Assembly (NCBI GenBank): GCA_016208495.1
Contig: JACQXX010000110.1
Location: 1-64,000 of the forward strand
Length of the DNA: 64,000 nt
Reading direction: 5' to 3'
Source: Acidobacteriota bacterium
GTDB taxonomy: Bacteria > Acidobacteriota > Blastocatellia > Chloracidobacteriales > Chloracidobacteriaceae
This document shows positions 2,979 through 24,067 of the stretch, in pieces (within the stretch, counting starts at the first letter, position 1; every line of letters starts with the position of its first letter). The notes under the pieces were generated by a model, which worked only from the letters and a program-made list of their open reading frames with translations, did no database searches and had not been told where the DNA came from. The position numbers were made by a program, and so were the translations under genes.

Positions 2979-3329
2979 GAGCCTGGGGCTGAAGAAAACG
3001 GGCTGAAGAGATTGGGCCTGGAGTTGAAGAACCTGAAGTCTTCAGCTCTTGGCCCTAAATCCAGGGGGACGTCCTTAAGTTATATCCAATCACCTATATA
3101 AAAAATGATACGATTTCACCTCAATACTGCTTGCCAATGATAGAACCCTCTCCTAATATTGGCTGATCCCCAGAATGATCGAATGATTGACCAATCAGCA
3201 AGATACGAAGTATCTTTGCTCGTTTTTGCCGGGTGTCTAGTTTCTATATTTTTGTTGTCAGGCTACACATAGAAAGATGAACACCTGCTTCTGATTTGGG
3301 AAAAACCGTAAATTGGAGGGGCAAACCCG
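2979..3329. other. intergenic with CTGAAGA repeats
   Basis: Just after the stop, 2984-3046 contains GGGCTGAAGA-type direct copies and an inverted counterpart CTTCAGCTCTTGGCCC, able to form a hairpin that may end transcription. The rest is AT-rich. A good ribosome site, TTGGAGGGG, lies before the next start at 3330. Confidence 0.5.
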
Positions 3330-4151: not shown

Positions 4152-4237
4152 ACACCATGGCACAAACTGGCAAGCGGAATTGTGTTTTGTGTGTCCCTGG
4201 CTGAGAACTGTTACAACTTTATGGAGATCAACAGGTT

Positions 4238-4891: not shown

Positions 4892-4919
4892 CAGGTCCTC
4901 AAAACCAAAAGGAGTTTGT

Positions 4920-5696: not shown

Positions 5697-5697
5697 A

Positions 5698-5763
5698 GAC
5701 TTGGGGCTGAAGAACGTAGGTAGAGTCTCTAACCCATATTCTTCAGCCCAATATCTTCAACCT
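5698..5763. terminator. hairpin between convergent genes
   Basis: GGGCTGAAGAA near 5704-5714 and TTCTTCAGCCC near 5740-5750 form an 11-bp stem between a plus-strand and a minus-strand gene. The same words recur between other convergent genes here (18537-18598, 53029-53069), so this is a dispersed repeat that probably serves as a two-way terminator. Confidence 0.5.
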
Positions 5764-5770
5764 CGGTTTT

Positions 5771-6484: not shown

Positions 6485-6596
6485 TGGAACTTCTCCTTTT
6501 TCTCCATATGGAACCGATGTGCTCACAACCAGGGCTGAGGGCCTGGGGCTGAAAAACCATATCCAATCCCTACTCCCTATCCCCAGCCCCCTATCA

Positions 6597-7742: not shown

Positions 7743-7761
7743 AGGTGTTGCCTCCTTCTCG

Positions 7762-9006: not shown

Positions 9007-9192
9007 AGCGGGCTCCTTCGTTGAAATATTTTGGACTGCGACGGCTTGACGCCGCTCTAGGGACTCAAACAAGTCGAGTGGAAGGGAGGAGATGACTTGT
9101 GTGAAGCTGGTCTGCGGGTAAGAACACCCGAGATGGAGGTTTATTCCGTCGAATTTGGAAAAAAGGGAAGGAATTTTTTCTCGGGTGAGGTG

Positions 9193-9303
9193 TTATATCA
9201 GTTTGAAGTCAGTAGTCAGTAGTCAGTAGTTCACTAAGTTTAGTTGGTTGAATCACTTGACTGTTTGCTCACACAAGGATTTCAGTGCAGATTGGTGGTA
9301 TGC
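9193..9303. repeat. dispersed ~100-bp element with 7-bp tandem core, copy
   Basis: Begins TATATCAGTTTG, carries AGTCAGT repeated about three and a half times at 9207-9230, continues TTCACTAAGTTTAGTTGGTTGAATCACTTGACTG and ends near GATTGGTGGTAT. The same order recurs at 24525-24624 and 51937-52033, and inverted at 20490-20577. It lies between the divergent peroxidase operon and sigma-factor gene, so it may influence their promoters. Confidence 0.7.
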
Positions 9304-9337
9304 TGCCAGTCACCTTCTTTCACATCACAGGCCGGAA

Positions 9338-9895
9338 ATGAAATCAGACCCGACGCAATCTTCCCAATTTAGTCAGTCAGCGTTGGAGCACCTGGATGCG
9401 CTCTACGGCTTTGCCATGGCTTTGACCCGCAACCAGACTGAGGCGGAAGATCTGGTCCAGGAAACCTACCTCCGGGCCGCCCGGGCATTTGGACGATTGC
9501 TCCCTGACAGCAATCTGAAAAGCTGGTTGTTTGCCATCATGCGCAATATCTGGCTCAATCAGATCCGTCATCATCGGAGCGGTCCGCAGTTTGTGGAACT
9601 GGATGCCGAGGAAGATTCCCGCCGTGACTGGCTTGATTCCGAGCAGAGCAACCCGCACCTGCGACTGGTTCAGAAAATTGAACGTGAACAGGTGCAAACC
9701 GCCATCAGCCGACTTTCAGAGACCCATCGCGAAGTGGTGGTCTTGCGCGACATCGAAGGGTTCAGCTATCAACAAATTGCCAGCATTCTGCAATGTCCGA
9801 TTGGGACGGTGATGTCCCGGCTTGGACGTGCCAGAGAACAGCTTCGATTGTTGCTGAGCCCTTCAGACATGAATCCGTCTCCTGGTGAAAGGTAA
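9338..9895 (+). CDS. ECF-type RNA polymerase sigma factor
   Basis: 185 residues from ATG 9338; the frame opens at 9248 but the extra 30 residues come from repeat DNA. Region 2 is clear (LDALYGFAMALTRNQTEAEDLVQETYLRAARAF, then LKSWLFAIMRNIWLNQIR) and region 4 is a helix-turn-helix (LSETHREVVVLRDIEGFSYQQIASILQCPIGTVMSRLGRAREQL). It recruits RNA polymerase to stress or envelope promoters and should be held inactive by the membrane anti-sigma gene that follows directly. Divergent from the heme peroxidase operon, a plausible target. Confidence 0.93.
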   Translation: MKSDPTQSSQFSQSALEHLDALYGFAMALTRNQTEAEDLVQETYLRAARAFGRLLPDSNLKSWLFAIMRNIWLNQIRHHRSGPQFVELDAEEDSRRDWLDSEQSNPHLRLVQKIEREQVQTAISRLSETHREVVVLRDIEGFSYQQIASILQCPIGTVMSRLGRAREQLRLLLSPSDMNPSPGER

Positions 9896-9911
9896 TCTGG
9901 TATTTTCAGCG

Positions 9912-10823
9912 ATGACTCAGTGTGACCGATTTCGAGATCAAATCAGCTTTTACCTGGATGAAGAACTGGGCGAACCAGAACGCGCGCAGCTTGCCGACCA
10001 TCTGGGTCAATGCGAGTCGTGCCACAAGGTGTTTGAGCAAGAACAGCAGTTTCTGGCGCACATTCGTGCCTGCCAGCCGCTCTACCGGGTCAGCTCCAAT
10101 TTTCGAGCCAAAATCGAACAGACCATTTCCGAAGTTTCAGCCCCGCACCGGGCACCGGCGTCGCTTCGGGACCGAATCCAAAAATCAATGGACGTTCACA
10201 ACAGTTCGCCAACGAGTTCCTTCTGGAACTGGAAGCCGCTGGCCGTGGTCGCATCAATTCTGGTGATGGTGCTGATTGGGATTTGGGTTTTGGGATTGCT
10301 CCCAATAAATCGCCTGATGCCAACCCCTTCGGAATTTGCCCGAATGGCGGTTGATACGCATGTTCGCCGGTTGCGCGGGCAGCTTCCGCTTGAAATCACG
10401 ACTGCTTCGCCCGATCAAATCTCAGCCTGGTTTGCCGGGAAAGTCGCGTTCCAATTGAAGTTGCCAAATTATCAGGAATCTTCAGGCCAAACGAGACTAT
10501 ACCAGCTCGAAGGCGCCCGCCTGGTCGGGTTTAAAAATGATTATGCGGCGTTTGTCGCCTATGAAATGCAGCACCGTCCGATCACGCTCGTGGTGACAGC
10601 CAATTCAGTCGTGATGCCGTCAGGCGGCGAAGAAATCAAATCAAAGGGGATTACTTTTCACTGTGATTCGATCAATGGGTTGAAGGTGATTTCGTGGGCT
10701 GATCGCGGGTTGACCTATGCCCTGGTTTCCGATCTTGAAGAACGCGGGCAGGATTCGTGTTTTGTCTGCCACACTGGCACCAAGGATCGTGATTTCATCG
10801 AGAATTTGAAGCTGGCAAAATAA
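9912..10823 (+). CDS. zinc-finger transmembrane anti-sigma factor with C-terminal CxxCH motif
   Basis: 303 residues from ATG 9912, 16 bases after the sigma gene stop. The cytoplasmic N-terminus has the zf-HC2 motif HLGQCESCHKV (H-x3-C-x2-C, about residues 33-42) used by zinc anti-sigma factors to bind ECF sigma. One membrane segment, WKPLAVVASILVMVLIGIWVLGLLPI, lies at about residues 110-135. The extracytoplasmic part ends with GQDSCFVCHTGTKDRDF. CFVCH fits the covalent heme c attachment pattern, unusual for an anti-sigma factor, and it faces the compartment where heme c is attached. Together with the neighbouring cytochromes this suggests a redox- or heme-sensing switch (inference). Confidence 0.88.
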   Translation: MTQCDRFRDQISFYLDEELGEPERAQLADHLGQCESCHKVFEQEQQFLAHIRACQPLYRVSSNFRAKIEQTISEVSAPHRAPASLRDRIQKSMDVHNSSPTSSFWNWKPLAVVASILVMVLIGIWVLGLLPINRLMPTPSEFARMAVDTHVRRLRGQLPLEITTASPDQISAWFAGKVAFQLKLPNYQESSGQTRLYQLEGARLVGFKNDYAAFVAYEMQHRPITLVVTANSVVMPSGGEEIKSKGITFHCDSINGLKVISWADRGLTYALVSDLEERGQDSCFVCHTGTKDRDFIENLKLAK

Positions 10824-10828
10824 TGTCA

Positions 10829-11015
10829 GTTTATGGTCAGTAGTCAGTGGTTAGTAGTTGATAAGTCAGTAGTCAGTAGTCAGCAGACAAAACTCAGATT
10901 GTTGAATCCGTGGAATTCTTGAAAAGGATTGTTCCTAAATAACTCAAAAAGAACCAAATAGACTTGATAGATAATTCAAAATTCCAACACTCAGCTACTG
11001 ACTACTGACTACTGA
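10829..11015. repeat. 7-bp tandem repeats (GTCAGTA type) in intergenic region
   Basis: Two degenerate AGTCAGT tracts (10829-10883) and an inverted ACTGACT tract (10985-11012) flank about 100 bases of AT-rich DNA. The opposed tracts can pair into a long imperfect hairpin between the convergent anti-sigma and VOC genes. Confidence 0.7.
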
Positions 11016-11456
11016 CTACAAACTGGTATTGGTTAAAAATTCAATGTACTGAGCTGTCATTTCCGGTGTGGTGAACTCAATCAAGATTCGGTTCTCGACC
11101 CAAAACTCAATCAACTCAAAGGGGCCACGATGGCACCGCTCGGTTTTCCATCCTTCACGCTCGCCAATCTGTACAATGTGATTACAGGGTGCCGTCACTG
11201 AAATAAGGGCATGACTGGCTGAATATGGTGAACCGGGCTGGGTTTGGATAAACGTTGGAATCCCATCTCCAGGTTGAAGTTCCGTACCGTACGGCATCAC
11301 CTCAATAAAAGAACCGTACTCATCTCTAGCCAGTACAAACCAGGAATCGGACGGGAATTCAGGCGGTGCTGGAGCCACTTGACCACCAATGACTTCTGCC
11401 AGGATATCGGCAACTTTTCGGGTATTTTTTGCTGAAATCGAAATATGATGAATCAT
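11016..11456 (-). CDS. VOC-family (glyoxalase/bleomycin-resistance-like) protein
   Basis: 146 residues. It opens MIHHISISAKNTRKVADILAEVIGG, the first strand-helix of the vicinal-oxygen-chelate fold with a possible His metal ligand, and ends with ELIEFWVENRILIEFTTPEMTAQYIEFL, containing a Glu at the usual position of the last ligand. Cytoplasmic, single-gene unit. The reaction cannot be told from sequence: family members include lyases, dioxygenases and drug-binding proteins. The last codons are close to a tandem-repeat tract. A MITE copy lies just upstream of its start. Confidence 0.65.
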   Translation of the reverse strand: MIHHISISAKNTRKVADILAEVIGGQVAPAPPEFPSDSWFVLARDEYGSFIEVMPYGTELQPGDGIPTFIQTQPGSPYSASHALISVTAPCNHIVQIGEREGWKTERCHRGPFELIEFWVENRILIEFTTPEMTAQYIEFLTNTSL

Positions 11457-11480
11457 TGTTACAATCCTTTTGTGCGATGG

Positions 11481-11595
11481 TAAGTACTCTGTCGTAAGTT
11501 TCCTGAGATATTGAATTTGGTAAGTGTTTGATTCTTTTCGTGTTTTTCGTGTTTTTCGTGGTTAAAATGTCTTGGAATTTTCGGTAAAGTACTTA
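11481..11595. mobile_element. MITE-like element, copy 2
   Basis: Begins TAAGTACTCT and ends AAAGTACTTA (inverted repeats with mismatches), 115 bp, same interior as copy 1 in the same orientation (TTTCCTGAGATATTG, TTTTTCGTG repeats, GTTAAAATGTCT). It lies upstream of the VOC gene and may separate it from its promoter. Confidence 0.85.
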
Positions 11596-11977
11596 TTTAA
11601 TCTTGATTGAGCTGAGATAGCCTTATTGGTTTTGCCAGGTATAGCCTTTCAGAAAAAGGTTCAGCATATCGTCTTGAGACGAGAGGTTTTTTCTTCCGTC
11701 CCACCCAGCGCGTCTCACGCCTGAAGGCGTTACTTCGGAACAGAAATATTTATCTGAAAAGTCATTCATGTCGTTTTCAACGACGCCCAGAAACAATGAA
11801 AAACAAGATGGGCAGCGGTTCAGTCAGGTATTTTTCAGAGGAGCTATAGATGGCTGTAGCAGAGTCTTTTGAAGGAAATTTCCGTTGCGGAAAGGTTGGG
11901 ATTTGCCTGGAAGATGATGGAGAGTGGCCAACTCTTTATGGATAAAGGGCATTCCAGGCTGGTTCTGACCTCAGGGA
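11596..11977. other. intergenic, no gene recognised
   Basis: No coding pattern in either strand. One short palindrome, GCCTGAAGGC, near 11721, and the words TTTCCGTTGCGGAAAGG near 11879 that also occur at the edge of the GC-rich element at 2270. Otherwise nothing seen. Confidence 0.4.
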
Positions 11978-13354
11978 TTATCTGAATCCATTGCGAACTG
12001 CTGTCATCCAGAGTTCATTTTTCGGCTGCAATGCGATAATTGCCCGGGGTTCAACGGTTTGATGTGGAACCAACTGAAGTCGCCACTGTTGGGCCAGGGT
12101 TGCGATCAGGAGCACCCCTTCCATTCGGGCAAAGCTTTCGCCAATACAAACGCGTGCCCCGCCGCCAAACGGAAAGAAAGAAAACTTTGGGCGTTCGGCT
12201 CTGGCTTCGGGTGTCCATCGGTCCGGATCAAAACGGAATGGGTCAGGAAAGTACCGTGGATCGTGGTGCATCACCCAGGGACTGAGCACAATGGTGGCTC
12301 CCGCAGGAATGTGATAGCCGCCGATGTCAAACCCGTTGATTGCCCGTCGGCCCAGCGCCCAGGCTGGTGGATACATCCGCATGGCCTCATTGAAAACCAT
12401 TTCGGCGTACCGCAGGTTTGGCAAATCTTCAAAGGTTGGAGCTCTACCCTTGAGAACCTGGTCAATCTCGGTCTGGAGCGCCGCTTCAGCCGCCGGATTT
12501 TGTGAGAGCAAATACCACGTCCAGGTCAAGGCATGGGCTGTCGTCCCGTGCCCCGCCAGAAAGATGGTCATTGCTTCGTCGCGCAACTGACGGTCATTCA
12601 TTCCGCTGCCGTCGCCTTCTTCGTCGCGGGCAAAGACCAGCATCGAAAGCAAGTCACCGTGGTCGTTGCCGTTGAGCCGTCGTTCTGAAATCAGGCGATA
12701 GATCACGCTGTCGAGCATCTCAATTGCCCGCCAAAGCCGAATATTGGACGGGAGCGGCAATTTGTCGAGCCATTCGGCAAACGGCAGCAGCAACCGGTTG
12801 AAATTTTGCTCAATGACATTGAGAGCGGCACCAATGTCTTCGGCATCGCCCTCAACATCAGTGTCAAAGAGGGTTTTGCCAACGACAGCCAGTGTCAATC
12901 GCATCATTTCTTTCCTCATGTCGAGCCGGTCACCATCCTGCCACCGGGCTCGCATCCGTTGGGCCTGTTCAACCATCACGGTGCCATACGCGGCAATGCG
13001 CTGGCGGTGAAAAGCTGGTTGTGAAAGTCGGCGCTGACGGCGCCAGAATTCACCTTCACTGGTTAATAGTCCTTTTCCCAGAAACACTTTTGTGCGTTCG
13101 ACCCCCCGACTCTTAATAAAATTCTGGTTGCCGGTCATCAATACATCGCGAATGTAATCAGGGTGATTGAGAAGGTAAATCCGCTGATTCCAAAATTTCA
13201 GATGGACGATATCGCCGTGCTCAAGGGCCACAGCTCGCAGAAAATCGAGTGGGTCACGACGAAAATCTAAAAAACTCCCAAAAAATGGGATCCCTTTTGG
13301 TCCTGGAGGAAGCTTAATCCCGGCTGGTTGGGAAATATCCAGGGATACACTCAT
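11978..13354 (-). CDS. cytochrome P450
   Basis: 458 residues, full family length. The oxygen-binding I-helix motif is FLAGHGTTAHAL at about residue 270, the ExxR pair is FNEAMRMYPPAW, and the heme-thiolate loop is FFPFGGGARVCIGESFARMEG at about residue 400, all intact. The N-terminus lacks a membrane anchor but has the proline-rich hinge KLPPGPKGIPFFGS of class II-like P450s. It inserts one oxygen atom into an organic substrate using electrons from a ferredoxin or flavoprotein, none of which is encoded nearby. Substrate unknown; LxPPGPKG-type bacterial P450s often act on fatty acids or terpenes. Confidence 0.95.
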   Translation of the reverse strand: MSVSLDISQPAGIKLPPGPKGIPFFGSFLDFRRDPLDFLRAVALEHGDIVHLKFWNQRIYLLNHPDYIRDVLMTGNQNFIKSRGVERTKVFLGKGLLTSEGEFWRRQRRLSQPAFHRQRIAAYGTVMVEQAQRMRARWQDGDRLDMRKEMMRLTLAVVGKTLFDTDVEGDAEDIGAALNVIEQNFNRLLLPFAEWLDKLPLPSNIRLWRAIEMLDSVIYRLISERRLNGNDHGDLLSMLVFARDEEGDGSGMNDRQLRDEAMTIFLAGHGTTAHALTWTWYLLSQNPAAEAALQTEIDQVLKGRAPTFEDLPNLRYAEMVFNEAMRMYPPAWALGRRAINGFDIGGYHIPAGATIVLSPWVMHHDPRYFPDPFRFDPDRWTPEARAERPKFSFFPFGGGARVCIGESFARMEGVLLIATLAQQWRLQLVPHQTVEPRAIIALQPKNELWMTAVRNGFR

Positions 13355-13436: not shown

Positions 13437-14813
13437 TTACTCTGTCTTGAATCCATACAAATTGATCGTGTTTTCACGCAGCACCATTCTGGCCAGTTTC
13501 AGGGCTTGATCCCTTGTGATTTCACCCTCGTTCATCATATCGGTGAGAGCCATCCCAAGTGCCTGCCGGCTGGTTTTCGTGGTAAGCCAGCCGGTTTCCT
13601 CCCATCCAATCTCTGGAACCAGACCAAAGGCATCTGTCCCAAACAACACTTTTTCCGGGACAAACTCCAGCCATTGACGGATCACCAGACTTAATTCGTG
13701 CGGTTGACGGAGAAATGTCTGAGCGGAAAAATCTACATAGACGTTCGGTTTTGTAAGTAAGGCCGTTGTCTGTGTAGAAAAGGGCCAGCCGCCATGCACC
13801 AGCACAAAATTTGTCTTGCGCAAAGTCGGATCATTGAGGGCAGACTCAAGCAAAAGCGGATTGGATCCGGTAACATTGAAATAGGCACCAATACCAATCC
13901 CTGTGTGAATATGGACGGCAAGACCAAGGCGGCCTGCTTCTCGTGCGATGGAACGGAAAAGGTAATCTTGCAGTATTTTGTATTCGGTAGCCGGTGGCTC
14001 ACCACCTCTGACATAGTTTGCATAGATTCTTTTGGCGTCAGCTTCATCGGCATCTGCAAAGTCCAGAGTACGGAGATAAGCCGCTTCAAATTTGACCCCT
14101 ACGACACCATCGCGTTTTTGTTGTTCCAGAATGGGAGTCACAACCGTTGCCAAATACTTATCCAACGTCGCCGGCAATGATTTAATTCCTAGACTGGCAA
14201 GATAGTTTTTTAAAAGGCGCTCTTCATCAAGGTAGAAAGAACAATAATCGGAATTGATGTTTCGTGCCGCTTTTGTGCTCAGGGGGAGCAGTAAGGCATC
14301 AACAAAGCTGACCCACCTGAAACGTGGTGATTGAAGACCAGTCCCCATGGCTACCCGGTTGGCAAACATGGTTTCAATCCCCAACTGATCAAGCACCCAG
14401 GCTGGATACATATCACCCTGTTTGCTCATTACCTGTCGTCTCAATTCCTTCAATTCACGCAAATGTGCTTCAGTTGCATCGGTGTAAGGATACCCATAGA
14501 GAGCCTTCCAGGCTGCAATATATTCGGGGTTATCTGGACGCAAGCGTACAGGGAGGGGAAACGGTTCAATGCCCTCAAGCGTGAGCGCATCTGATTCATT
14601 GTCCCCCTCGCCGTCCTTCACCAGCCGCATCGGATGGGCATGGTGGTCAATCGCTTTGATCTGTTTGATCGCAGCCAGCAATGCTGGATCGGGAGTTGTG
14701 TGCGCGGCTGGTTGATTTGAGGTGCGAGCATTGGCCAAATTCAGCATCAGAACTGGCAGTGCCAGTACCAGTGTGACGAACAAACGTGGCAATGAGGAAG
14801 GATTTGAGTTCAT
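13437..14813 (-). CDS. secreted amidohydrolase-superfamily protein
   Basis: 458 residues with signal peptide (LPRLFVTLVLALPVLMLNLANA). Metal-site motifs of the TIM-barrel amidohydrolases appear in order: IKAIDHHAHPMR (H-x-H, about residue 55), the barrel strand LAVHIHTGIG, FVLVHGGWPF and, near the C-terminus, VLFGTDAFGLVPEIGWEE with the catalytic Asp. This is closest to the amidohydrolase-2 group (decarboxylases, lactonases, metal-dependent hydrolases). It acts outside the cytoplasm; substrate unknown. The amine oxidase gene lies directly upstream on the same strand with about 40 bases between, so both may process related nitrogen compounds (inference). Confidence 0.85.
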   Translation of the reverse strand: MNSNPSSLPRLFVTLVLALPVLMLNLANARTSNQPAAHTTPDPALLAAIKQIKAIDHHAHPMRLVKDGEGDNESDALTLEGIEPFPLPVRLRPDNPEYIAAWKALYGYPYTDATEAHLRELKELRRQVMSKQGDMYPAWVLDQLGIETMFANRVAMGTGLQSPRFRWVSFVDALLLPLSTKAARNINSDYCSFYLDEERLLKNYLASLGIKSLPATLDKYLATVVTPILEQQKRDGVVGVKFEAAYLRTLDFADADEADAKRIYANYVRGGEPPATEYKILQDYLFRSIAREAGRLGLAVHIHTGIGIGAYFNVTGSNPLLLESALNDPTLRKTNFVLVHGGWPFSTQTTALLTKPNVYVDFSAQTFLRQPHELSLVIRQWLEFVPEKVLFGTDAFGLVPEIGWEETGWLTTKTSRQALGMALTDMMNEGEITRDQALKLARMVLRENTINLYGFKTE

Positions 14814-14853
14814 GGCAATGGGTATTTTTTCCTATAAGGTTTGGGATTGAATT

Positions 14854-16317
14854 TCAGGGAGCCAGGATGATTTCCTGTGTCACACGATTGCCCGAATCGA
14901 GCGCCCCTTGCATCCAGCCGGGCCACATTGAGGTGTGCTCTCCGGCGAAATATACTCGACCTTCTGGTCGCGCAATGTGAGGGAAAAGTGAAAACATTTC
15001 CCCAGGCTTCAAGATCGAATAGGCACCACACGCCCACTGGTCTTCATCCCAGCAATAACTCACGCCGCTTTCCAGGGTCTCGCTCAGTCCTGGGAAGACT
15101 TGCTCAAGCTGGTTGCTCACAGCCGAAATCCGGTCTTTTTCAGAAAGCGCCGACAGTTGCCGGGCTTGAACGCCTGAACGGTAAGAAACGAGTATTCCCC
15201 GTTTGCCCGTCTGGTCAAATGTCGGATGCCAGATTTCTTCAGGTAGATCAGTCCTGGCAAAACCACTTACCCCTTCTTTTTCCCAACTCCGCTGGTTTGT
15301 TTGAAGGAAGACCCGCGTAACCGAGTCGTAAGCATGGTGATTGATTGCCTGCTGTTTGTCGCTTGAAAATGGTGGGGAAATTTCGATGCGCCGCAGGGTC
15401 GTGAACGGAGTGGCACACACCAGATAGTCTGTCGAAAGCTGGCGTGTGGTTCCAGCCTGATGATATGTGATGGTCACGCTTTGGCGGTCGTGCTCAATCC
15501 GGACAACCTCAGCGCCATAATGAATTTTCGTAGCCAGCCGCTTTGCAAATGCTTTGGGAAGCAGATCGTTTCCGCCTTTAATTTTATAGTCCAGTTTTTG
15601 GTCTTTCAGGAGCGCTGCTTCGCGTAACCACCACAAGGCTGAAATCTGGTCGTCTTCCGGTTTGTAGTAAGGCATTTCCAACAGTGCAATCGCATCGGAT
15701 GAGGCCCCACACTCACGCAAAAGTTCTGCAAATGTCAGGCGATCAAATTTTCTGAGCGATTCAGAAAGCCAACCTTTCGTTTTAGGACGTCCAATTTCAG
15801 TTAAGACAGGTGTGACATAGCGCTCCCACAGGCCAGGTACGCCACCTTTCCTCTCTTCTGGTTTGAGCGACAAAGGTAAACTTGAAAGCTCAATATGCCT
15901 GCCAGCAGGAACCTTTATTCGTTTCCCTCTGAGATAAGAAGTATCGGATTGCCCGTAAGGCGAAAATGGAACCAGTGTCAGACCAAAGAGACGAGCATAT
16001 CTGATTGTTTGGTAATGAATGTCTGGAATGTGAGCCGCACCGGCTTCGGCATACAGCCCATCGGAGAACGGCTCCCGCAACGTGTAAACCCGGCCCCCGG
16101 CACGTGTGCGGGCTTCAAGTACCATCACGTCGTGGCCAGCCTGGGTAAGTTCATAAGCGGCTGACAGCCCCGCCAATCCAGCACCGATGATTACAATTCT
16201 CTTTCGCGTGCTGGGCCGGTGATGTTTTTGTGCGCCGGAAACACTGACGCTTGAAGGAAAAAGGGCCGCCAGTGCAGCGTGTTTGAGGAATTCTCTTCGG
16301 TTAATTGGGTTTTTCAT
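14854..16317 (-). CDS. flavin monoamine oxidase, Tat-exported
   Basis: 487 residues from ATG 16317; an earlier start at 16356 is possible. NRREFLKHAALAALF is a twin-arginine signal. The FAD dinucleotide motif IVIIGAGLAGLSAAYELTQAGHDVMVLEARTRAGGRV is complete, and the C-terminal FAD-binding motif GRVYFAGEHTSMWPGWMQGALDSGNRVTQEI is typical of monoamine/L-amino-acid oxidases. It oxidises amines with O2 to aldehyde or keto acid, ammonia and H2O2. It precedes the secreted amidohydrolase on the same strand. Confidence 0.92.
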   Translation of the reverse strand: MKNPINRREFLKHAALAALFPSSVSVSGAQKHHRPSTRKRIVIIGAGLAGLSAAYELTQAGHDVMVLEARTRAGGRVYTLREPFSDGLYAEAGAAHIPDIHYQTIRYARLFGLTLVPFSPYGQSDTSYLRGKRIKVPAGRHIELSSLPLSLKPEERKGGVPGLWERYVTPVLTEIGRPKTKGWLSESLRKFDRLTFAELLRECGASSDAIALLEMPYYKPEDDQISALWWLREAALLKDQKLDYKIKGGNDLLPKAFAKRLATKIHYGAEVVRIEHDRQSVTITYHQAGTTRQLSTDYLVCATPFTTLRRIEISPPFSSDKQQAINHHAYDSVTRVFLQTNQRSWEKEGVSGFARTDLPEEIWHPTFDQTGKRGILVSYRSGVQARQLSALSEKDRISAVSNQLEQVFPGLSETLESGVSYCWDEDQWACGAYSILKPGEMFSLFPHIARPEGRVYFAGEHTSMWPGWMQGALDSGNRVTQEIILAP

Positions 16318-16473
16318 TATGTTTTTTTGGTCAGAAGTGGTGGCGGTTGCCATCACTCCAGCTCTCTGGCCAAATTGGTGCTGCCGCCTTTGGTGTGGCC
16401 GGCTGCTGGGTAAAGAGTTACCCCTCGAAACAAGGTTGAATGCGAACCAATTTTCGTCTTTGGATGAAAGTTC

Positions 16474-17361
16474 TCAATCGCAATGAATGAACGGAAGTCG
16501 AGTCAGGGCAATGCTTTTTGGTATTGTTTTAACCGTGTGACAGTTGCCGAGTCGAAAGTAAATGTGGCCGGGCATATGAACCATATGCCCCGAAGCTGGG
16601 GCCAGGCGACTGAGCACTCTGGCACTATTGAGTGCTGACTCGGGTTCGTTGGTACCTTCCACGACATGAATCCAGTAATGATGGGCGGCTGCATTGTTGG
16701 GGTCGGTGGCGAGGACTTCTTTTACCAGTTCAAGACTCCGTTGGCGATTTTTTGAGGGCTCACCGGTCAACTCAAAGCTATGAGAAAAATCATAGATAAA
16801 TAAAAATTGAGCCAGAACCAGTTTGGCCTGGATGTCATTGGGATAGCGGGCAATCAGGGATTCCATCTCTTGCTGATAGGCAAGTCGGCCTTTTTCACCG
16901 CCCAGTGATTCACGAAGTTCAATCGCTTTAATATATGCCTGTTCCTGAGGAGAAACCTTTGGGCCAAGGTCAAGAGCTTTCTTCAGGAAGCCCTTTTTCT
17001 CATCAGGCTTGTCAGCGCCAGTGATTGGATTGGACATAACCTGATACATGCCCCAATACGCCATTGCACAATTGGGATCAAGTCGAATTGCTTCTTGAAA
17101 GGAACGCATGGCTTCGTTGCCCCAAAAACAGTGCAGAAGTGCCAATCCCTGGTTGAAGTATCGTTGGGCGCGGGGTGATTTGGTGGTGATTGTGAGTGCG
17201 GCTTTCCCAATTCCAGTCATCAAGCGTGGAGGAGACCCTGATTCTGGCAGTGGAAGGTCTGATTTTGAAGAGAGGCAGTGGTTTTTAGAGGGATAGTCCT
17301 GAGCCGAAAGCGGAAAAGAACTAATGAAAACGATAGATAAAAGAAGGATTCCTGATCTCAT
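16474..17361 (-). pseudogene. TPR-repeat protein, C-terminally truncated
   Basis: 295 residues from ATG 17361. Signal peptide (GILLLSIVFISSFPLSAQ), then AQRYFNQGLALLHCFWGNEAMRSFQEAIRLDPNCAMAYWGMYQVMSNP and further helical repeats up to HMVHMPGHIYFRLGN. Related proteins continue after this HMPGH motif with several more TPRs (about 500-600 residues, from memory). Here the frame changes to HTVKTIPKSIALTRLPFIHCD and stops, and no continuation is visible in the other frames before the next gene, so the second half seems lost. It may still be expressed as a short protein. Confidence 0.65.
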
Positions 17362-17427
17362 GGATTTACTGAATACACAGAAGATTACCCTGTTGATCGA
17401 GATCTTTTGACCAAAGTCCTCAATCAA

Positions 17428-17955
17428 TTCGGATTGAAGTGGACTAAACTGGGTGGGAGTCTTGTGAGAAGGCTATAGTGATTTAGACTTGCAATGGAGT
17501 TTGGTGGGGCTACGAGGGAGTGACCAAAAATGGTTTTCGAACTCTGTATTTGCTCAAGTTATTTCTTGATGCCGACCCGGTACTGACCAGAGGTGTTGAC
17601 AAACCATCAAGGACAACGGGAATTTGGGAGGAACTACCTGCTTCAATCTGACCTGTGGATTCAGTGGTTGTTCAAATTTGTGAACGCGTTCACAACGGGT
17701 CAAATAATTGAAAGGATTAGGCTTAAATGGTCCTAGACAGAAAAGATAGGATCATTTTTGGTCAACTGAGCCGGCAGGTCATGACAGTGTACTGTTGCTG
17801 GTTGCCAGGTCTTACCAGTTGAGTCCATCCGTGCTTCTTTTTCCCTTTTTGCTTCAAAGAAATAGGGGGTTGTGGTAGCTTAGCGCGGTTTTATACACCA
17901 TCCGCTGTACTTCATTCAGCATCATTTCAAAAAAGGCGAGGATTCGAAGATCATC
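17428..17955. other. intergenic, no gene recognised
   Basis: About 530 bases between divergent genes. Promoters for both must lie here but I cannot place them with confidence. One palindromic word, GTGAACGCGTTCAC, at about 17681-17694 is a possible operator. Confidence 0.4.
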
Positions 17956-18519
17956 ATGAGTGTAAATAAAGAAGATTGCATTCTGTTTAGCGGCGGCGCC
18001 AACGGTGCCGAAGCTGAATTTGGTGCGGTAGCCGAAGCCTTCGGCATTGAAGAAGTCAATTTTACCTTTGAAGGCCACAATATTGCCCGCCAGCGTGGTC
18101 TGCGGGTTCTCAACCACGAAGAGTTGAAAAACGGAGACGTCAGCCTCGAATATATTTCCCGGCTGATGAATCGCCGCTACACCGACAGCCCGATTTTTCG
18201 CAAATTGTTACAAAGCATCTGGTATCAAATTAACAATGGCCAGGAAATCTATGTCATTGGCGAGATTTTAGAAGACAAAACCGTCAAGGGCGGCACTGGT
18301 TGGGGGGCTGAATTTGCCAAGTTATGCAATAAGCCATTGCATGTGTTTGATCAGAAACGCGATGCCTGGTTTACCTGGAATCAAGTCGAATGGGTTGAAT
18401 GTACCCAGGATAATCTTCCAGTGATTACTCACACCCATTTTTCCGGTACCGGAACGCGGTTTATCGAAGACAACAGCCGCAAAGCCATCCGGGAATTGTT
18501 TGAACGATCATTTTCTTAA
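17956..18519 (+). CDS. SLOG-like (YpsA/DprA-type Rossmann) nucleotide-binding protein
   Basis: 187 residues. It starts ILFSGGANGAEAEFGAVAEAFG, resembling the GGxxGxE nucleotide loop of SLOG domains, and later has GGTGWGAEFAKLCNKPLHVFDQKRDAWFTWN, matching the second conserved patch in which a Gly-rich turn is followed by a hydrophobic strand. SLOG proteins bind nucleotide-derived ligands such as ADP-ribose or cytokinin nucleotides (family knowledge). Cytoplasmic. It is convergent with the ThiF end of the Ro60-like locus, so membership in that system is possible but not shown. Confidence 0.65.
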   Translation: MSVNKEDCILFSGGANGAEAEFGAVAEAFGIEEVNFTFEGHNIARQRGLRVLNHEELKNGDVSLEYISRLMNRRYTDSPIFRKLLQSIWYQINNGQEIYVIGEILEDKTVKGGTGWGAEFAKLCNKPLHVFDQKRDAWFTWNQVEWVECTQDNLPVITHTHFSGTGTRFIEDNSRKAIRELFERSFS

Positions 18520-18644: not shown

Positions 18645-19283
18645 TCAAACTTGCCTCACGTTCAAATCGCGTAGCGTGATCATAAATCCGTGCTTTTGCT
18701 GATTTTCAATAAAATTGATCAGCGTTTCTGATGTGACGGCCACCGTCAACATCACCAGATTGCGAGCCAGCGGATACTCACACACGTCATCCTGGGTCGC
18801 TGAAGGCACCCGATACCGTTCATTCCAGGTAATTTCCGCAAAATCAGAAGCCATTCCGGCATGAAGACAGGCCATTGCGTACGTCTCGCACGCCTGTTTG
18901 ACGGCTGCCCGTGAGAGGCTGTTGTCAAATGTATCAACCACAATCTGGCTTCCTTGCAGAAGTTTACGGGCATTTTCCGAAGTCAATCGGTCAGCAACCG
19001 AATCAAGCTGGATTCCCAGTGCCCGAAAAAGAGAATTGGCCAGGATTTTCACCTTGTGGGCGCCGATGTCGCTTCGGTAGTAAGGCTGTGACGACAAATT
19101 CCGCTCTTCGACGCGATCAAAGTCAATGACGCGAAGTTTTCGGAATCCAATCCGGGCCAGCGTTTCAATCAGGTTTGCCCCCAGTGCCCCGGCGCCACAG
19201 ACCGTGACCTGTGTTTCGCGGAGTTTGAGCAAAAGTTCCTGGGTGCGATAGAGCTGTTCGTGAAAAGTAAATGAGTGTGACAT
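18645..19283 (-). CDS. ThiF/E1-like adenylyltransferase
   Basis: 212 residues, the size of a minimal E1 adenylation domain. ATP-binding loop VTVCGAGALGANLIETLARIG and the following DFDRVEERNLSSQPYYRSDIGAHKVKILA (D-x-D-x-V-E-x-x-N-L-x-x-Q) are intact, as is VVDTFDNSLSRAAVKQAC. The zinc CxxC pairs of MoeB/ThiF are absent; a Cys in QDDVCEYPLARN is the only candidate thioester residue. Such enzymes adenylate the C-terminal glycine of a ubiquitin-like protein. The 66-residue protein at 23867-24067, ending in Gly, is a candidate partner. Last gene of the Ro60-like locus. Confidence 0.85.
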   Translation of the reverse strand: MSHSFTFHEQLYRTQELLLKLRETQVTVCGAGALGANLIETLARIGFRKLRVIDFDRVEERNLSSQPYYRSDIGAHKVKILANSLFRALGIQLDSVADRLTSENARKLLQGSQIVVDTFDNSLSRAAVKQACETYAMACLHAGMASDFAEITWNERYRVPSATQDDVCEYPLARNLVMLTVAVTSETLINFIENQQKHGFMITLRDLNVRQV

Positions 19284-19589
19284 ACAAATCAGGGTTCAGG
19301 GTTTTCGGAAGGGATGAGGGATGAGGGATGAGGGATGAAAAAAATCACCTTTTCACCATGTCATTTTTTCACCATGTCATCCTGTCATTATGTCCTGGTT
19401 TTCGCCGCCGCAGCGGTGGTTGAATTGAGGCAGGTCGTTTACGGCCTGAAAAACAGAAAAGACAGAAAGGACATACATTCGAAAACCCGGAACCCAGACC
19501 AGATGACCAAATGACACGGTGAGAGGGTGATTTTTTTCATCCCTCATCCCTCATCCCTTCTGAAAACCCGGAACCCGGAGCCCGAAGAA
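19284..19589. repeat. 7-bp tandem repeats (GGGATGA and inverse) between ThiF and the unknown gene
   Basis: GGGATGA runs about four times at 19312-19338 and the inverse TCATCCC run lies at 19538-19560, so the whole spacer can fold as a long stem. No gene is visible inside. The spacer separates two genes of one strand and may be inserted into an older operon. Confidence 0.65.
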
Positions 19590-20465
19590 TCAGTCTTCAA
19601 ACCGTTGTTCAATCACATTGACCAGTGACTGCAAATCAAAATCCCGGTCACGTCCACTTAAACAAATCCCCGAGCTCACCACCGTCAAATCGTGCTTATT
19701 GATGGCTGAGGTATGCGTTTCGCCGGATGGGGTTTGCCATTCGACCAGCCAGAATTCGTCACGGTCGGTATACTTCATCAGCTTCCCGCCACCCAGTTCC
19801 AGGGCCTGTCGCAATCGCTGGTCATTAGTGGTTGCTGGTCGCTGAACGGTACGCCTGGCGGAATCTGACCGAATCGGGGACACACCACTTCTGGCAATTT
19901 GATAGGTTTGGCGCATTTCGGGCGTCATCCCGGAAAATTTGAGTTGATCAAACCCGACCAAATTTTCAAACGCTTCTCGCATTGATTCGGCTGGGAGTGG
20001 GTCGGCTCGACGATCCAGATCTTCGTACCACCAGACCTGTCCACTGCCACGCACAATGACTGATTCAAACCGGCTGCCTTCGGTGACCAGATGGACCATC
20101 ATCGGTCGGGCGGAACCAAACCGGGCCTGCATATCAGCCCCATTGACTGGATAGGCAAGCCACGTTCTCCGATCCAGATTGGCAATCAACCGCACCCGAA
20201 GTGCCTTGAGTAATGCACAATAGCGAGCAATGACATCAAGAGAAGCTTCTTCGATCAGGTCGGCAGTATTGAGGTCTTTTGGTTGGAAAATACCCCAGCC
20301 TTCAAATGTCTTTGGCACTGGGGAAAACGTGCGAACCAGACCCTGAATCCGGGTTTGAACTTTCCCACGAAACACGCAGGGCGCCACAAACCGGGTTGTT
20401 TGTAGCGCCTGATCTGCTTCAAGCAGAGATTGAATTAACTGGTTCAGGGTGTTGCGCTGTCTCAT
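19590..20465 (-). CDS. unknown protein of the Ro60-like locus
   Basis: 291 residues, no signal peptide or membrane segment. N-terminal helix (TLNQLIQSLLEADQALQ), then a beta-rich part (RFVAPCVFRGKVQTRIQGLVRTF, GWGIFQPKD), a helical middle, and a C-terminal beta part (KLMKYTDRDEFWLVEWQTPSGETHTSAINKHDLTVVSSGICLSGRDRDFDLQSLVNVIEQRFED). I recognise no family. Its position between the vWA protein and the E1-like enzyme suggests an adaptor or conjugation factor. An E2-like role was considered because of the nearby E1, but no E2 motif is visible. Confidence 0.75.
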   Translation of the reverse strand: MRQRNTLNQLIQSLLEADQALQTTRFVAPCVFRGKVQTRIQGLVRTFSPVPKTFEGWGIFQPKDLNTADLIEEASLDVIARYCALLKALRVRLIANLDRRTWLAYPVNGADMQARFGSARPMMVHLVTEGSRFESVIVRGSGQVWWYEDLDRRADPLPAESMREAFENLVGFDQLKFSGMTPEMRQTYQIARSGVSPIRSDSARRTVQRPATTNDQRLRQALELGGGKLMKYTDRDEFWLVEWQTPSGETHTSAINKHDLTVVSSGICLSGRDRDFDLQSLVNVIEQRFED

Positions 20466-20489
20466 AACATATCATTTTGCAATGAAGTG

Positions 20490-20577
20490 TTCATATGAAA
20501 AAGTAGTCAAGTAATTCAATCAGATGGACTTAGTGAATTACTGACTACTGACTACTGACTACTGGCTGATATAAAAA
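20490..20577. repeat. dispersed ~100-bp element with 7-bp core, inverted copy overlapping a gene end
   Basis: Read on the minus strand this is TTTTATATCAGCC, then AGTAGTC repeats, then AATTCACTAAGTCCATCTGATTGAATTACTTGACTACT. It supplies the last codons and the stop of the vWA gene ending at 20545, whose tail LYQPVVSSQ is a translation of the repeat. Confidence 0.65.
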
Positions 20578-21387
20578 ACCACGCTTGCCAAGTCGAGCAA
20601 CTGATCGAGCGACGCGTTGGCGGGGTGTTTGCAACTGTTCGGAAATCTCTCCGATCAACGCCAGTGGCGATTGAACCACTACATCCAGAACCTGCTGGTC
20701 AAACGCCAGTCCTTCAAATTCCTGCTTCAACTGGTTGATAATCACCTCAATCACTGAACCCTGGACAGTTGAGCAGGTACCACCCGTGAAGGTCGCCAGT
20801 TCGGAAAAGGCGGCCCGGGCATACACACAGCCACCCATCAACAGACCGTGAATGGTAATCATGTGGGCTTCAGCCTCAGCAGTCACTGACCGGATGGTAC
20901 TTCCACAGGGACACCCGTTTGGCCAGGCATCGCCATTCATTCTGACTGGACGGTGCTGGTGCTGCCGTCGAGGTTGTGGTTCATCCGAAGCCGGCAGGGT
21001 ATATCCATGCGGAGGCGCATCTCCGACAAGCAAAATCAATCGGTAACTGGTTGGACGCCACTTGACTTGGGTACAGGCCGCCACAACTCCGTCATAGACG
21101 GCTTCCGGGCCATCGCCACCGCCTTGCGGAGACAGTTTCTTGATGTAACTTTCAACCTGTTTGAAATCCCCAGTCGGCACAGAAACTCGCGTCACAAACG
21201 AGTTGTCCTGGGGAGGATGGTCACGATATTCAACCAGCCCACAGTGCAAATCAACCTGGGTCAGTTTGGTCAGTTGACTCAAGGCATCCAGCAAATGCTT
21301 TTGAGCCTGTTGGATAAACCCACCCATGCTGCCAGTGACATCAATCACAAAACAAAGATCCACCGAATTGAGTCCAGTTGTGTACAT
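20545..21387 (-). CDS. vWA-domain protein with winged-helix-like C-terminus
   Basis: 280 residues. The vWA metal-ion site is LCFVIDVTGSMGGFIQQAQ near the N-terminus (D-x-T-G-S), with LVEYRDHPP and SPQGGGDGPEAVYDG completing the fold. A His/Arg-rich insert with NGCPCGS (about residues 140-160) could bind metal. The C-terminal QSPLALIGEISEQLQTPRQRVARSVARLGKRGFL reads like a winged helix. The final residues derive from a repeat element. It lies 42 bases after the Ro60-like gene and probably works with it, as vWA proteins assemble multi-protein or ribonucleoprotein complexes through the metal site. Confidence 0.85.
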   Translation of the reverse strand: MYTTGLNSVDLCFVIDVTGSMGGFIQQAQKHLLDALSQLTKLTQVDLHCGLVEYRDHPPQDNSFVTRVSVPTGDFKQVESYIKKLSPQGGGDGPEAVYDGVVAACTQVKWRPTSYRLILLVGDAPPHGYTLPASDEPQPRRQHQHRPVRMNGDAWPNGCPCGSTIRSVTAEAEAHMITIHGLLMGGCVYARAAFSELATFTGGTCSTVQGSVIEVIINQLKQEFEGLAFDQQVLDVVVQSPLALIGEISEQLQTPRQRVARSVARLGKRGFLYQPVVSSQ

Positions 21388-21428
21388 AGTAATACCATTT
21401 CGGGTTCCAGGTTCCGGAACCCGGAACC

Positions 21429-23040
<1,612 letters not shown>

Positions 23041-23045
23041 TAAAA

Positions 23046-23186
23046 GGTTCTGTCCTGCACAAGTTGTAAAAGCAATTAGTGGTTACACACGGGATTTGAA
23101 CCCGCTACCCTCTGTTCCAAAAACAGATGCTCTACCCAGTTGAGCTAGTGTATGTATGCTTTAACGGTTTGAGTGCAGGACAGAAA
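23046..23186 (-). ncRNA. tRNA-like Y-RNA candidate 1 (UUG loop)
   Basis: Read on the minus strand. Ends pair perfectly over 13 bp (23173-23185 with 23048-23060). Then comes an internal loop (CTCAAACCG opposite ACAACTTG), a second stem (AAAGCA/TGCTTT), and a cloverleaf at 23152-23084: 5-bp stem TACAC/GTGTA, T-A linker, D arm GCTC-AACTGGGTA-GAGC, anticodon arm TCTGT-TTTTGGA-ACAGA (TTG at positions 34-36, + strand 23118-23120), 5-base variable loop, T arm GCGGG-TTCAAAT-CCCGT. It is not a working tRNA because the acceptor is short and merges into the long stem. It matches a bacterial Y RNA: tRNA mimic plus Ro60-binding stem. Confidence 0.82.
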
Positions 23187-23197
23187 AAATTATGAAT

Positions 23198-23313
23198 TAA
23201 GTACCTTACCGAAAATTTCCAGACATTTTGAACCACGAAACACACGAAATACACGAAAAAAATCAAACACTTACCAAATCCAATATCTCAGAAAACTTAT
23301 GACAAGGTACTTA
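23198..23313. mobile_element. MITE-like element, copy 3 (inverted), inside the tRNA-like RNA array
   Basis: 116 bp with ends TAAGTACCTT/AAGGTACTTA, interior reverse complement of copies 1 and 2 (CAGACATTTTGAACCACG, CACGAAA repeats, CCAATATCTCAG). It separates tRNA-like RNAs 1 and 2. TGAAT flanks both sides, but this may be chance in local TGAATTA repeats. Confidence 0.85.
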
Positions 23314-23425
23314 TGAATTATGAATTATGAAAAACTGGCTCTGGTTTGGTTGCCTGTGAGTATTCCCCCACCATATGACTGGTCTCCAGAGAGATATTTT
23401 TCTTCATTCTTCGTTCGTTTTTAAA

Positions 23426-23565
23426 GGTTCTGTCCTGTACGAGTTGCAAAAGCTGTTTTGGGTTACACATTGGATTCGAACCAATGAATGTCTGCTTATG
23501 AGGCAGGTGCTCTACCACTGAGCGAGTGTATGTAAGCTTTTTCTGTCGGAGTACAGGACAGAACT
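23426..23565 (-). ncRNA. tRNA-like Y-RNA candidate 2 (CAU loop)
   Basis: Same design as candidate 1. A perfect 14-bp closing stem (23551-23564 with 23427-23440), an internal loop CTCCGACAG opposite GCAACTCG, a second stem AAAAGCT/AGCTTTT, and a cloverleaf at 23530-23464: TACAC/GTGTA, D arm GCTC-AGTGGTA-GAGC, anticodon arm CCTGC-CTCATAA-GCAGA (CAT, + strand 23498-23500), T arm ATTGG-TTCGAAT-CCAAT. The closing stem and internal loop are shared with candidate 1 while the cloverleaf differs, as expected if one part binds a common protein and the other specifies a function. The loop UCCGA/CAACU resembles the Ro-binding site of animal Y RNAs as I remember it. Confidence 0.82.
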
Positions 23566-23627
23566 CAATTTTCAAAAAAAACAAAAAAGGAATTGTAAAT
23601 CGCTAACCCTTTGAAAATAATGCTTTA

Positions 23628-23674
23628 CTGACTACTGACTACTGACTACTGACTACTGACTACTGACTACTGAC
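23628..23674. repeat. 7-bp tandem array (CTGACTA)
   Basis: CTGACTA is repeated about seven times without interruption, the longest heptamer array in the window, directly between tRNA-like RNAs 2 and 3. Confidence 0.9.
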
Positions 23675-23680
23675 TTGTGA

Positions 23681-23858
23681 TTGATCATCTCCGCGCAAGT
23701 TACTGAAGCGGTTGTCACTACGTTCAGTGTGTATCCATTTCACCACAAACCCAAATGGTGGATTTGACAGGAGTCGAACCTGCAGAGCCCGTGAGGGCCG
23801 CTGAATTAAATTGAGTGTGTATGCTTCACCGGTCAGAGCGCAGAGATGAAAAGATCAA
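23681..23858 (-). ncRNA. tRNA-like Y-RNA candidate 3: circularly permuted class II cloverleaf
   Basis: Minus strand, closing stem 23838-23848/23686-23696 (11 bp, one G-U) plus TTGATC/GATCAA, internal loop CTCTGACCGG opposite GTAACTTG (as in candidates 1 and 2), then TGAAGC/GCTTCA and CACT/AGTG. The cloverleaf is in permuted order: anticodon 3' strand TTCAG (23805-23801), long variable arm with GCCC-TCAC-GGGC, T arm GCAGG-TTCGACT-CCTGT, acceptor CAAATCC, ACCA, a 3-base loop TTT, acceptor GGGTTTG (7 bp, one G-U), TG, D arm GTG-AAATGGATA-CAC, A, anticodon 5' strand CTGAA (23727-23723). All segments abut exactly. The anticodon loop is replaced by the long stem. Confidence 0.82.
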
Positions 23859-23866
23859 ATGTTCAT

Positions 23867-24067
23867 TTATCCATAGACGGCTTCGGGGCGAATGATCACC
23901 GTGCCGTTGGCTGTTCGATCCACAACGTAGTTCTTGAGTCGCTCTGGGGCAACATTGAGCAGTGTCGCAACCCGGCGTAAAACATCAGCGTCGGCTGTGG
24001 TCGGTCGGATATTGGCCGCCTGCGGCTGGAAATCATAGGACCGTCCTTCAAATCGAATGTGTACCAT
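23867..24067 (-). CDS. small ubiquitin-like (beta-grasp) candidate ending in Gly
   Basis: 66 residues from ATG 24067, with ribosome site AAAGGAG 9 bases upstream. Predicted order strand-strand-helix-strand: MVHIRFEGRSYDF, a second strand, helix DADVLRRVATLLNVAPERLKNYVV, strand GTVIIRPEAVYG. The protein ends in Tyr-Gly, so its C-terminus could be adenylated by the E1-like enzyme at 18645-19283. This resembles small Ubl partners of ThiF enzymes in bacteria, but sequence identity to a named family is not evident to me. It lies just upstream of the tRNA-like RNA array on the same strand. Confidence 0.6.
   Translation of the reverse strand: MVHIRFEGRSYDFQPQAANIRPTTADADVLRRVATLLNVAPERLKNYVVDRTANGTVIIRPEAVYG

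Follow-up and report, generated by a model that had tools for sequence, protein, structure and literature searches.

The 64,000-nucleotide stretch of acidobacterial DNA analysed here (the window) contains a one-strand locus in which, as judged by sequence, a Ro60-like protein and Y-type RNAs are combined with a ubiquitin-like protein (Ubl), an E1-type enzyme and a cysteine protein, with a JAB peptidase added in phage relatives and, in many cases, a tRNA array nearby. These genes very probably form one functional system, and the preferred explanation, assigned a probability of about 0.42, is a second Ro60 ribonucleoprotein system built with an Ubl conjugation cassette and protecting translation. 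The host genome possesses a classical RtcR-Rsr-YrlA-RtcBA operon on a separate contig (C147), and the window locus is therefore a second, different Ro60 system; neither RtcB nor RtcA nor RtcR was detected among the window genes scanned, which sets it apart from the Rsr-RtcBA type. The set of open reading frames, their coordinates and their common location on the minus strand (Table 1) agree with the original prediction, which had proposed an undescribed system. Conservation of the gene order supports this proposal, with several amendments: the RNAs are of Y type, one of them permuted, the vWA protein is accessory, the 291-residue protein may be an E2, and relatives additionally have tRNA arrays, a JAB peptidase and rRNA-mimic RNAs.

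Table 1 Features of the Ro60-Ubl locus in the window
Feature	Position	Strand	Characteristics
Ubl (predicted), 66 aa	23867-24067	minus	first gene; ends ...RPEAVYG
Y-type RNA 1, permuted tRNA domain	23684-23850	minus	Y stem frame, permuted topology
Y-type RNA 2, linear tRNA-like domain	23425-23566	minus	ARAGORN/Rfam tRNA call, 14-bp outer stem
Y-type RNA 3, linear tRNA-like domain	23047-23186	minus	ARAGORN/Rfam tRNA call, 13-bp outer stem
Ro60-like protein, 482 aa	21429-22877	minus	C-terminal vWA; MIDAS DKSSSMD, residues 301-307
vWA protein, 280 aa	20545-21387	minus	MIDAS DVTGSMG; C-terminal HTH-like region; accessory
Protein without assigned family, candidate E2, 291 aa	19590-20465	minus	Cys268 invariant; OB-like middle domain
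E1/ThiF-type adenylating enzyme, 212 aa	18645-19283	minus	Pfam ThiF 2.6e-28

The RNAs display the hallmarks of Y RNAs: their two ends pair into a stem of the Ro-binding type that is interrupted by an internal loop, and they are encoded beside the Ro60 gene. That a Y-RNA-like stem frame encloses all three window RNAs had gone unremarked in the original prediction. This frame was found 72 times in related loci versus not once in 1.22 Mb of shuffled sequence, and its six inner stem pairs covary, all being standard in 68 of the 72 copies and in 19 after exchanging partners. The tRNA-like character predicted for the three RNAs was confirmed. Both ARAGORN and Rfam call RNA 2 (23460-23532, 'Met' cat, 48.5 bits) and RNA 3 (23081-23155, 'Gln' ttg, 49.6 bits) tRNAs, and RNA 1 is a circularly permuted tRNA, in which the T-arm is followed by a 7-bp acceptor stem (CAAATCC-[ACCATTT]-GGGTTTG) and then by D-arm-like sequence, all inside the Y stem frame; a partial match to Rfam tmRNA_permuted covers the T-arm/CCA part. 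The Y frame and the complete permuted acceptor stem rule out a mere tRNA remnant. Permuted topology was observed in 28 of 75 RNAs (RNA 1 and 27 others) versus 0.36 in shuffles. An anticodon-like hairpin is retained in only 11 of 26 permuted RNAs (control, 1.5), so that anticodon nucleases cannot be the sole prey of such RNAs.

A permuted tRNA-like domain is characteristic of YrlA and is shared by RNA 1, RNAs 2 and 3 being linear; since the Rfam YrlA model already has this order, a permuted tRNA-Y RNA was dismissed as a novelty in itself. No match to that model was obtained with the window RNAs, and the best relative (L028, 42.9 bits) stays below its gathering cut-off of 69 bits, as do the host's own classical YrlA copies with merely 39-48 bits. 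On account of these scores the RNAs are named divergent Y-type RNAs rather than filed under YrlA; a 3' ACUUG is common to them and the YrlA model.

Overall, the common stem frame presents exchangeable domains, namely linear tRNAs, permuted tRNAs, hairpins and rRNA mimics. The last, confined to three relatives, resemble the GTPase centre of 23S rRNA plus the sarcin-ricin loop. A GTPase-centre mimic matched the Rfam LSU covariance model (3.6e-14), local BLAST against Escherichia coli 23S rRNA yielded 1.4e-11, 7e-9 and 0.024, and an exact sarcin-ricin 12-mer precedes each of the three; unlike these two approaches, blastn of an rRNA-mimic RNA against E. coli genomes returned no match. To our knowledge, no Y-RNA frame carrying mimics of the sarcin-ricin loop and the GTPase-associated centre has been described. 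H69 mimics were not detected in a scan of viral sequences, and a sarcin-ricin match in viral contigs (L094), lacking the Y frame and any gene of the system, was judged a chance occurrence in coding sequence.

The proposed Ro60 relationship of the 482-residue protein was substantiated by three lines of evidence: the family profile aligned to the TROVE structures 9l5y/9kop (PDB) with 5e-5 over positions 23-394, Pfam vWA_Ro60 was matched by 3 of 13 family members, and, in a search of a very small set, the profile matched the host's classical Rsr, a Pfam TROVE and vWA_Ro60 protein, with 23 bits. A sequence relationship to Ro60/TROVE thus extends over most of its length. The window protein by itself gave a weak match to Pfam VWA_2 and none to the Pfam TROVE models. 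Viral sequences were not matched in a single-sequence search with this protein; an alignment-based search retrieved 50 loci. Remoter viral TROVE-like proteins (~30 % identity), several with tRNA arrays, have neither the Ubl nor the E1 nor the Y frame.

A beta-grasp Ubl with C-terminal Gly is predicted for the 66-residue protein, as had been supposed. Its AF2 model (pLDDT 90) comprises strands 2-6 and 9-13, helix 26-36 and strands 47-51 and 57-61; the VIA matches, mostly ubiquitin, NEDD8 and ISG15 besides PB1, are modest (Z 4-5.5), and Foldseek returned no significant match with the model. The C-terminal Gly is invariant (n = 16), and nearly all homologues stop exactly at this residue. Short tails beyond it occur in two phage Ubls (L039, L042), with JAB present at both loci, and in one locus (L089) the Ubl is fused in frame to Ro60 (...LRPDSVLG|KEDEYTV...).

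The ThiF-like E1 was likewise recognized correctly: a predicted adenylation domain with invariant CGxGALG, C139 and C168 (DxCxYPLAR) was found, with ThiF and Tcd as nearest families. Its PRTRC_ThiF score of 49 bits lies below the cut-off of that model (145), and neither the Ubl nor the 291-residue protein matched PRTRC models, such that the locus is not of PRTRC type. The latter protein may represent an E2. Its AF2 model (pLDDT 72) shows an OB-like middle domain (modest VIA match, Z 7.7, residues 87-154) and a C-terminal four-strand beta-meander followed by the motif GICLSG, the Cys268 of which is conserved in 29 of 29 aligned sequences; hhalign against PRTRC_B, as a test for E2, and Foldseek with the model gave no significant match. 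A deubiquitinase-like JAB gene (Prok-JAB, best 1e-10; motif HTHP...S..D) is located between the genes for candidate E2 and E1 in 10 phage loci; no bacterial locus, that of the window included, was found to have one. The vWA protein (Pfam VWA_4, 1.3e-11; MarR_2, 0.002) recurs only in few loci (L008, L027, L042).

The order Ubl, Ro60, 291-residue cysteine protein and E1 on one strand is shared by 20 loci, which come from Acidobacteria, from plasmids of cyanobacteria and from long contigs of viral origin, one viral carrier being a 595-kb phage. The gene set thus resides in certain bacteria and, often, on bacterial plasmids or in huge phages. Random placement of the genes in relatives had been named in advance as a refuting outcome; this did not come true, because the neighbourhood is strongly conserved, and the counts of the stem frame together with this gene order show that the locus is not a product of chance. 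tRNA arrays adjoin the locus in L006, L007, L008, L012, L029, L030 and L034, with 20-38 tRNA genes beside several bacterial relatives' loci; the window has no such array, tRNA genes being merely dispersed in its genome.

Under the preferred explanation, the Ro60-like ring would grip the Y RNAs by their stem, and the mimic domains would recruit proteins acting on tRNA or on the ribosomal factor-binding site, possibly nucleases of tRNA or rRNA, toxins, defence effectors or factors. The captured proteins would be loaded with Ubl by E1 and the cysteine protein and thereby marked or inactivated, JAB would mature or remove Ubl, and damaged tRNAs would be replaced from the tRNA array, so that translation is protected for the element or phage. 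The baiting-and-tagging step itself falls somewhat short of even odds. Its full form, an RNA-directed Ubl tagging in which interchangeable baits mimicking tRNA or ribosome are displayed on the Ro60 particle and attackers or regulators of translation are disarmed for phages and plasmids, is offered more tentatively still.

Unlikely is a RYPER-like RNA quality control, where a Ro60-like ring and Y RNAs supply a nuclease of the host with damaged tRNA or rRNA and the Ubl cassette only regulates the Ro60 particle. The known role of Rsr, Y RNA and PNPase in structured RNA decay (PMC8394870, PMC4726728) provides a precedent, and the Ubl-Ro60 fusion would suit Ro60 as modified partner, but the 23S GTPase-centre and sarcin-ricin copies, as well as the several different mimics per locus kept at many loci, are left unexplained. 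Purely decoying Y-type RNAs, sacrificed together with the tRNA array as sponges for tRNA/rRNA nucleases of host defence while the Ubl cassette sets particle levels, are clearly unlikely, even if tRNA arrays, huge phages, the retained anticodon-like hairpins and the proposal that YrlA competitively inhibits an anticodon nuclease (PMC7790460) would fit. Only a side role would then be left to E1, cysteine protein and JAB despite their recurrence in nearly all complete loci.

Highly unlikely is an Ubl that serves as a ThiS/MoaD/Urm1-like thiocarboxylate donor for thiolation of array tRNAs, with the Ro60 particle as tRNA scaffold. ThiF and Tcd as nearest E1 families would agree with it, and JAB enzymes occur also in sulfur-carrier pathways; however, neither rhodanese nor tRNA thiolase was seen among the recurrent neighbour families in a non-exhaustive annotation that identified only the JAB, HNH and known genes, and the window combines Ubl and E1 without an array. 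Chance neighbours or shared residence on mobile elements, suggested by the HNH endonuclease genes and mobile replicons common around the loci and by Ubl and Ro60 without nearby E1 in L006, L007 and L009, are most improbable and largely refuted by one order in 20 loci from several phyla and phages and by the in-frame fusion.

Bacterial Ro60 and Ubl systems have so far been treated as separate subjects, and one conserved cassette holds both. Together with the natural Ubl-Ro60 fusion it provides a testable enzymatic output for Ro60 particles, and the ribosome-mimic RNAs render the purpose of Y RNA domains directly testable. The cassette suggests an undescribed way to catch and tag proteins acting on the translation machinery, and its association with tRNA arrays of plasmids and of huge phages points to a possible role in conflicts over translation.

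Long plasmid tRNA arrays, as in relatives of the window locus, are also known from the cyanobacterial trn operon, which comprises 26 tRNA genes on an Anabaena megaplasmid, is repressed by TrcR in normal growth and is switched on by translational stress (PMC10272220). Unlike the trn operon, the relatives' arrays adjoin Ro60-Ubl genes; the terms Ro60, TROVE, Y RNA, ThiF and ubiquitin are all absent from the report on the former. TROVE proteins of jumbo phages and Borg elements have been linked to RNA repair or RNA binding/decay (PMC7824862, PMC11208441), and the present Ro60-like proteins also occur in huge phages; ThiF is absent from the jumbo-phage paper, where the word 'ubiquitin' appears twice, both times unrelated to TROVE. 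Literature joining TROVE with ThiF, or a tRNA array with Ro60, was not found in a survey whose scope excluded most subscription papers, including the main ones on bacterial Y RNAs.

With the Rsr/YrlA-YrlB/RtcBA operon, the locus shares a protein of the Ro60 family, the presence of several Y RNAs next to it, their layout (S1, asymmetric internal loop with 3' ACUUG, S2, tRNA-like domain) and, with YrlA, the permuted tRNA-like domain; it differs by Ubl, E1 and cysteine protein in place of RtcB, RtcA and RtcR, and by the linear tRNA and rRNA-mimic domains of the new system. A Gly-ended Ubl, a ThiF-type E1 and, in phage relatives, a JAB peptidase are common to prokaryotic Ubl systems (E1-E2-JAB-Ubl, PRTRC, 6A-MBL, E1-E2 defence). 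The E1, however, falls far short of the cut-offs for PRTRC_ThiF and 6A-MBL, and, unlike in prokaryotic Ubl systems in general, the candidate E2 is without match and a Ro60-like protein and structured RNAs are coupled to the Ubl module.

Genes for a ubiquitin-like protein ending in Gly (Ubl), the Ro60-like protein, a 291-residue protein with an invariant Cys268 (Cys protein) and the E1 follow each other in this order on a single strand in 20 loci (window, L008, L012, L013/L014, L015, L028, L030-L032, L036-L042, L044, L047, L086 and L089; L numbers denote other loci, in bacteria, plasmids and viral contigs). Together with Y-type RNAs carrying exchangeable mimic domains, and with a JAB (deubiquitinase-like) peptidase in phages, they form, on sequence evidence, one conserved system. 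Carriers are Acidobacteria, the cyanobacterial plasmids Kovacikia pA and Dolichospermum pAfl69, and viral contigs of up to 595 kb. The same genes occur in different order in L011 (Melainabacteria), while L006, L007 and L009 harbour Ubl, RNAs and Ro60, E1 being absent from the stretch read. The vWA protein, found in few loci, is accessory. Arrays of 20-38 tRNA genes adjoin seven bacterial loci (L006, L007, L008, L012, L029, L030 and L034); tRNA genes of the window's genome are dispersed only. In L008 and L034, an HNH_5 endonuclease is encoded next to either Ubl or the tRNA array, and related genes are placed likewise in ten further loci.

In the window, all five protein genes are located on the minus strand, exactly where the original prediction had placed them. 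The locus is not a displaced classical Ro60 operon, since a Pfam-confirmed set (RtcR, Rsr, YrlB plus three YrlA, RtcB, RtcA) is present on a different contig of the same genome.

Features of the window and of related loci
Locus	Feature	Position	Strand
Window	Predicted Ubl, 66 residues	23867-24067	minus
Window	RNA 1	23684-23850	
Window	RNA 2	23425-23566	
Window	RNA 3	23047-23186	
Window	Ro60-like protein, 482 residues	21429-22877	minus
Window	vWA protein	20545-21387	minus
Window	Cys protein, 291 residues	19590-20465	minus
Window	E1	18645-19283	minus
Window	Short tandem repeats	near 20560, 22950, 23650, 24540	
L105 (G000:C147, window's genome)	Classical operon	2928-12334	
L007 (G009:C3)	Ro60-like gene with intein-like insert	9604-12588	
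L033 (G426:C9)	Ro60-like gene, two frames	1169-2547	
L007	Three-hairpin Y domain	8752-8890	
L012	Three-hairpin Y domain	14780-14930	
L028	Three-hairpin Y domain	10143-10265	
L012	PolyA_pol head domain protein	16427-17227	
L013	Y-frame 5' half with H69-H71-like sequence	near 1529-1546	minus
L015	Y-frame 5' half with H69-H71-like sequence	16695 onwards	
L008	HNH_5 endonuclease	5819-6367	
L034	HNH_5 endonuclease	804-1484	
L014 (pAfl69)	Hypothetical and HEPN proteins	16620-18114	opposite

The window protein of 482 residues is classed as Ro60-like: the family profile matches the TROVE structures 9l5y/9kop and recovers the Rsr of the window's own genome, a clear TROVE/vWA_Ro60 protein, and three family members have a vWA_Ro60 match. 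In L007, the gene is a single 994-codon frame with an intein-like insert (first residues CVTGDTLI, last FISNGIVSHN, LAGLIDADG-like stretches) located exactly within the MIDAS, between DK and SGSM; in L033 it is probably broken, in genome or assembly. In L014, the hypothetical and HEPN protein genes are inserted between the Ro60-like and Cys protein genes. The TROVE-like proteins encoded on viral contigs L045-L077 are more divergent (identity about 30%); many lie near 7-34 tRNA genes, and Ubl, E1 and the Y frame are absent there.

All three window RNAs possess complementary strands of 10-14 bp at both ends. Across related loci, the same frame opens with S1 as outer stem and a loop on the 5' side, usually CCTGAC/CCCGAC/CCTAAC; next come stem S2, mostly terminating AAGC:GCTT, the sequence TTACAYAC and the variable domain, and on the 3' side a loop closing with ACTT precedes S1. 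A scan requiring a minimum of 6 pairs in S1 and 4 in S2 yielded 72 RNAs with this frame in related loci, whereas 1.22 Mb of block-shuffled sequence gave none; the window RNAs, whose otherwise identical frame has T as first loop base and thus escaped the strict scan, were recovered by a looser one. S1 covaries (n=51 distinct inner 8-mers), and its six inner pairs are all standard in 68 of 72 RNAs versus 19 after exchanging partners between RNAs, the exchange being more informative than the raw percentage because the scan had selected for pairing. As this layout matches the Rfam YrlA model (S1, internal loop with 3' ACUUG, S2, tRNA-like domain), window and related RNAs are classed as Y-type RNAs; none of those tested reached the YrlA gathering score. 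Short tandem repeats (type CAGTAGT/GGTTAGT) lie in intergenic stretches around the window locus.

Domains within the common frame are exchangeable. A linear tRNA-like domain was detected by ARAGORN in 23 RNAs, including two from the window, and the tRNA-like character originally predicted was borne out for two window RNAs by both ARAGORN and Rfam tRNA; RNA 1 was missed by both because its parts stand in a different order. It belongs to a permuted type (T-arm, then 7-bp acceptor stem; 28 of 75 RNAs versus 0.36 in shuffles) whose acceptor stem is mostly capped by a short loop, containing ACCA in RNA 1. A D-arm-like sequence follows 3' of the acceptor stem in 19 permuted RNAs (0.02 in shuffles), and an anticodon-like hairpin is retained in 11 of 26 (control 1.5). 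YrlA has this same permuted order, so permutation in itself is not new. Three relatives (L006, L012 and L014), and not the window, encode ribosome-copying RNAs, in which the exact sarcin-ricin 12-mer AGTACGAGAGGA and then the 23S GTPase-associated centre form the domain; the L012 centre matches Rfam LSU (3.6e-14, positions 1081-1156), and BLAST against E. coli 23S gave 1.4e-11 (L014), 7e-9 (L012) and 0.024 (L006). Remaining domains are short hairpins.

An additional domain class has three hairpins with a GCAAGCCTGA-like core, its L028 member lacking an Rfam match. In L013 and L015, Y-frame 5' halves are followed by 23S H69-H71-like sequence (TAACGGTTCTAAGGTAGC / TGACGGTCATAAGGTAGC), seemingly with an intron-like stretch 3' of it. 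The L012 PolyA_pol protein (CCA-adding/polyA polymerase type) is encoded between the Ro60-like gene and the ribosome-mimic RNA.

The 66-residue window protein is a predicted beta-grasp Ubl. Its last Gly is invariant and nearly all homologues end directly after it; short tails occur in two phage loci, both with JAB, whose gene lies between those of Cys protein and E1 in ten phage loci. L089 harbours an in-frame fusion of Ubl to Ro60. As E1, the locus encodes a short ThiF-type enzyme in which C168 is invariant. Family searches with the Cys protein gave no match; its predicted model has an OB-like middle and a C-terminal beta-meander carrying GICLSG, a motif recalling the active site of E2 enzymes, with the Cys invariant in 29 of 29 aligned sequences. 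E2 identity is only a lead, because comparing its profile with that of PRTRC_B gave no significant match.

Ro60 would hold the Y-type RNAs by S1, the mimic domains may recruit proteins acting on tRNA or the ribosomal factor site, and the Ubl would be attached to these by E1, perhaps also by the Cys protein. Sequence alone does not discriminate between this reading, RNA decay with a regulatory Ubl, Y-type RNAs as pure decoys, and the Ubl as a sulfur carrier. A literature search, with key bacterial Y RNA papers outside its scope, returned no paper joining TROVE with ThiF, or tRNA arrays with Ro60. To our knowledge, the joint Ro60/Y RNA/Ubl system and ribosome-mimicking Y-type RNAs are undescribed; every module is a variant of something already known.
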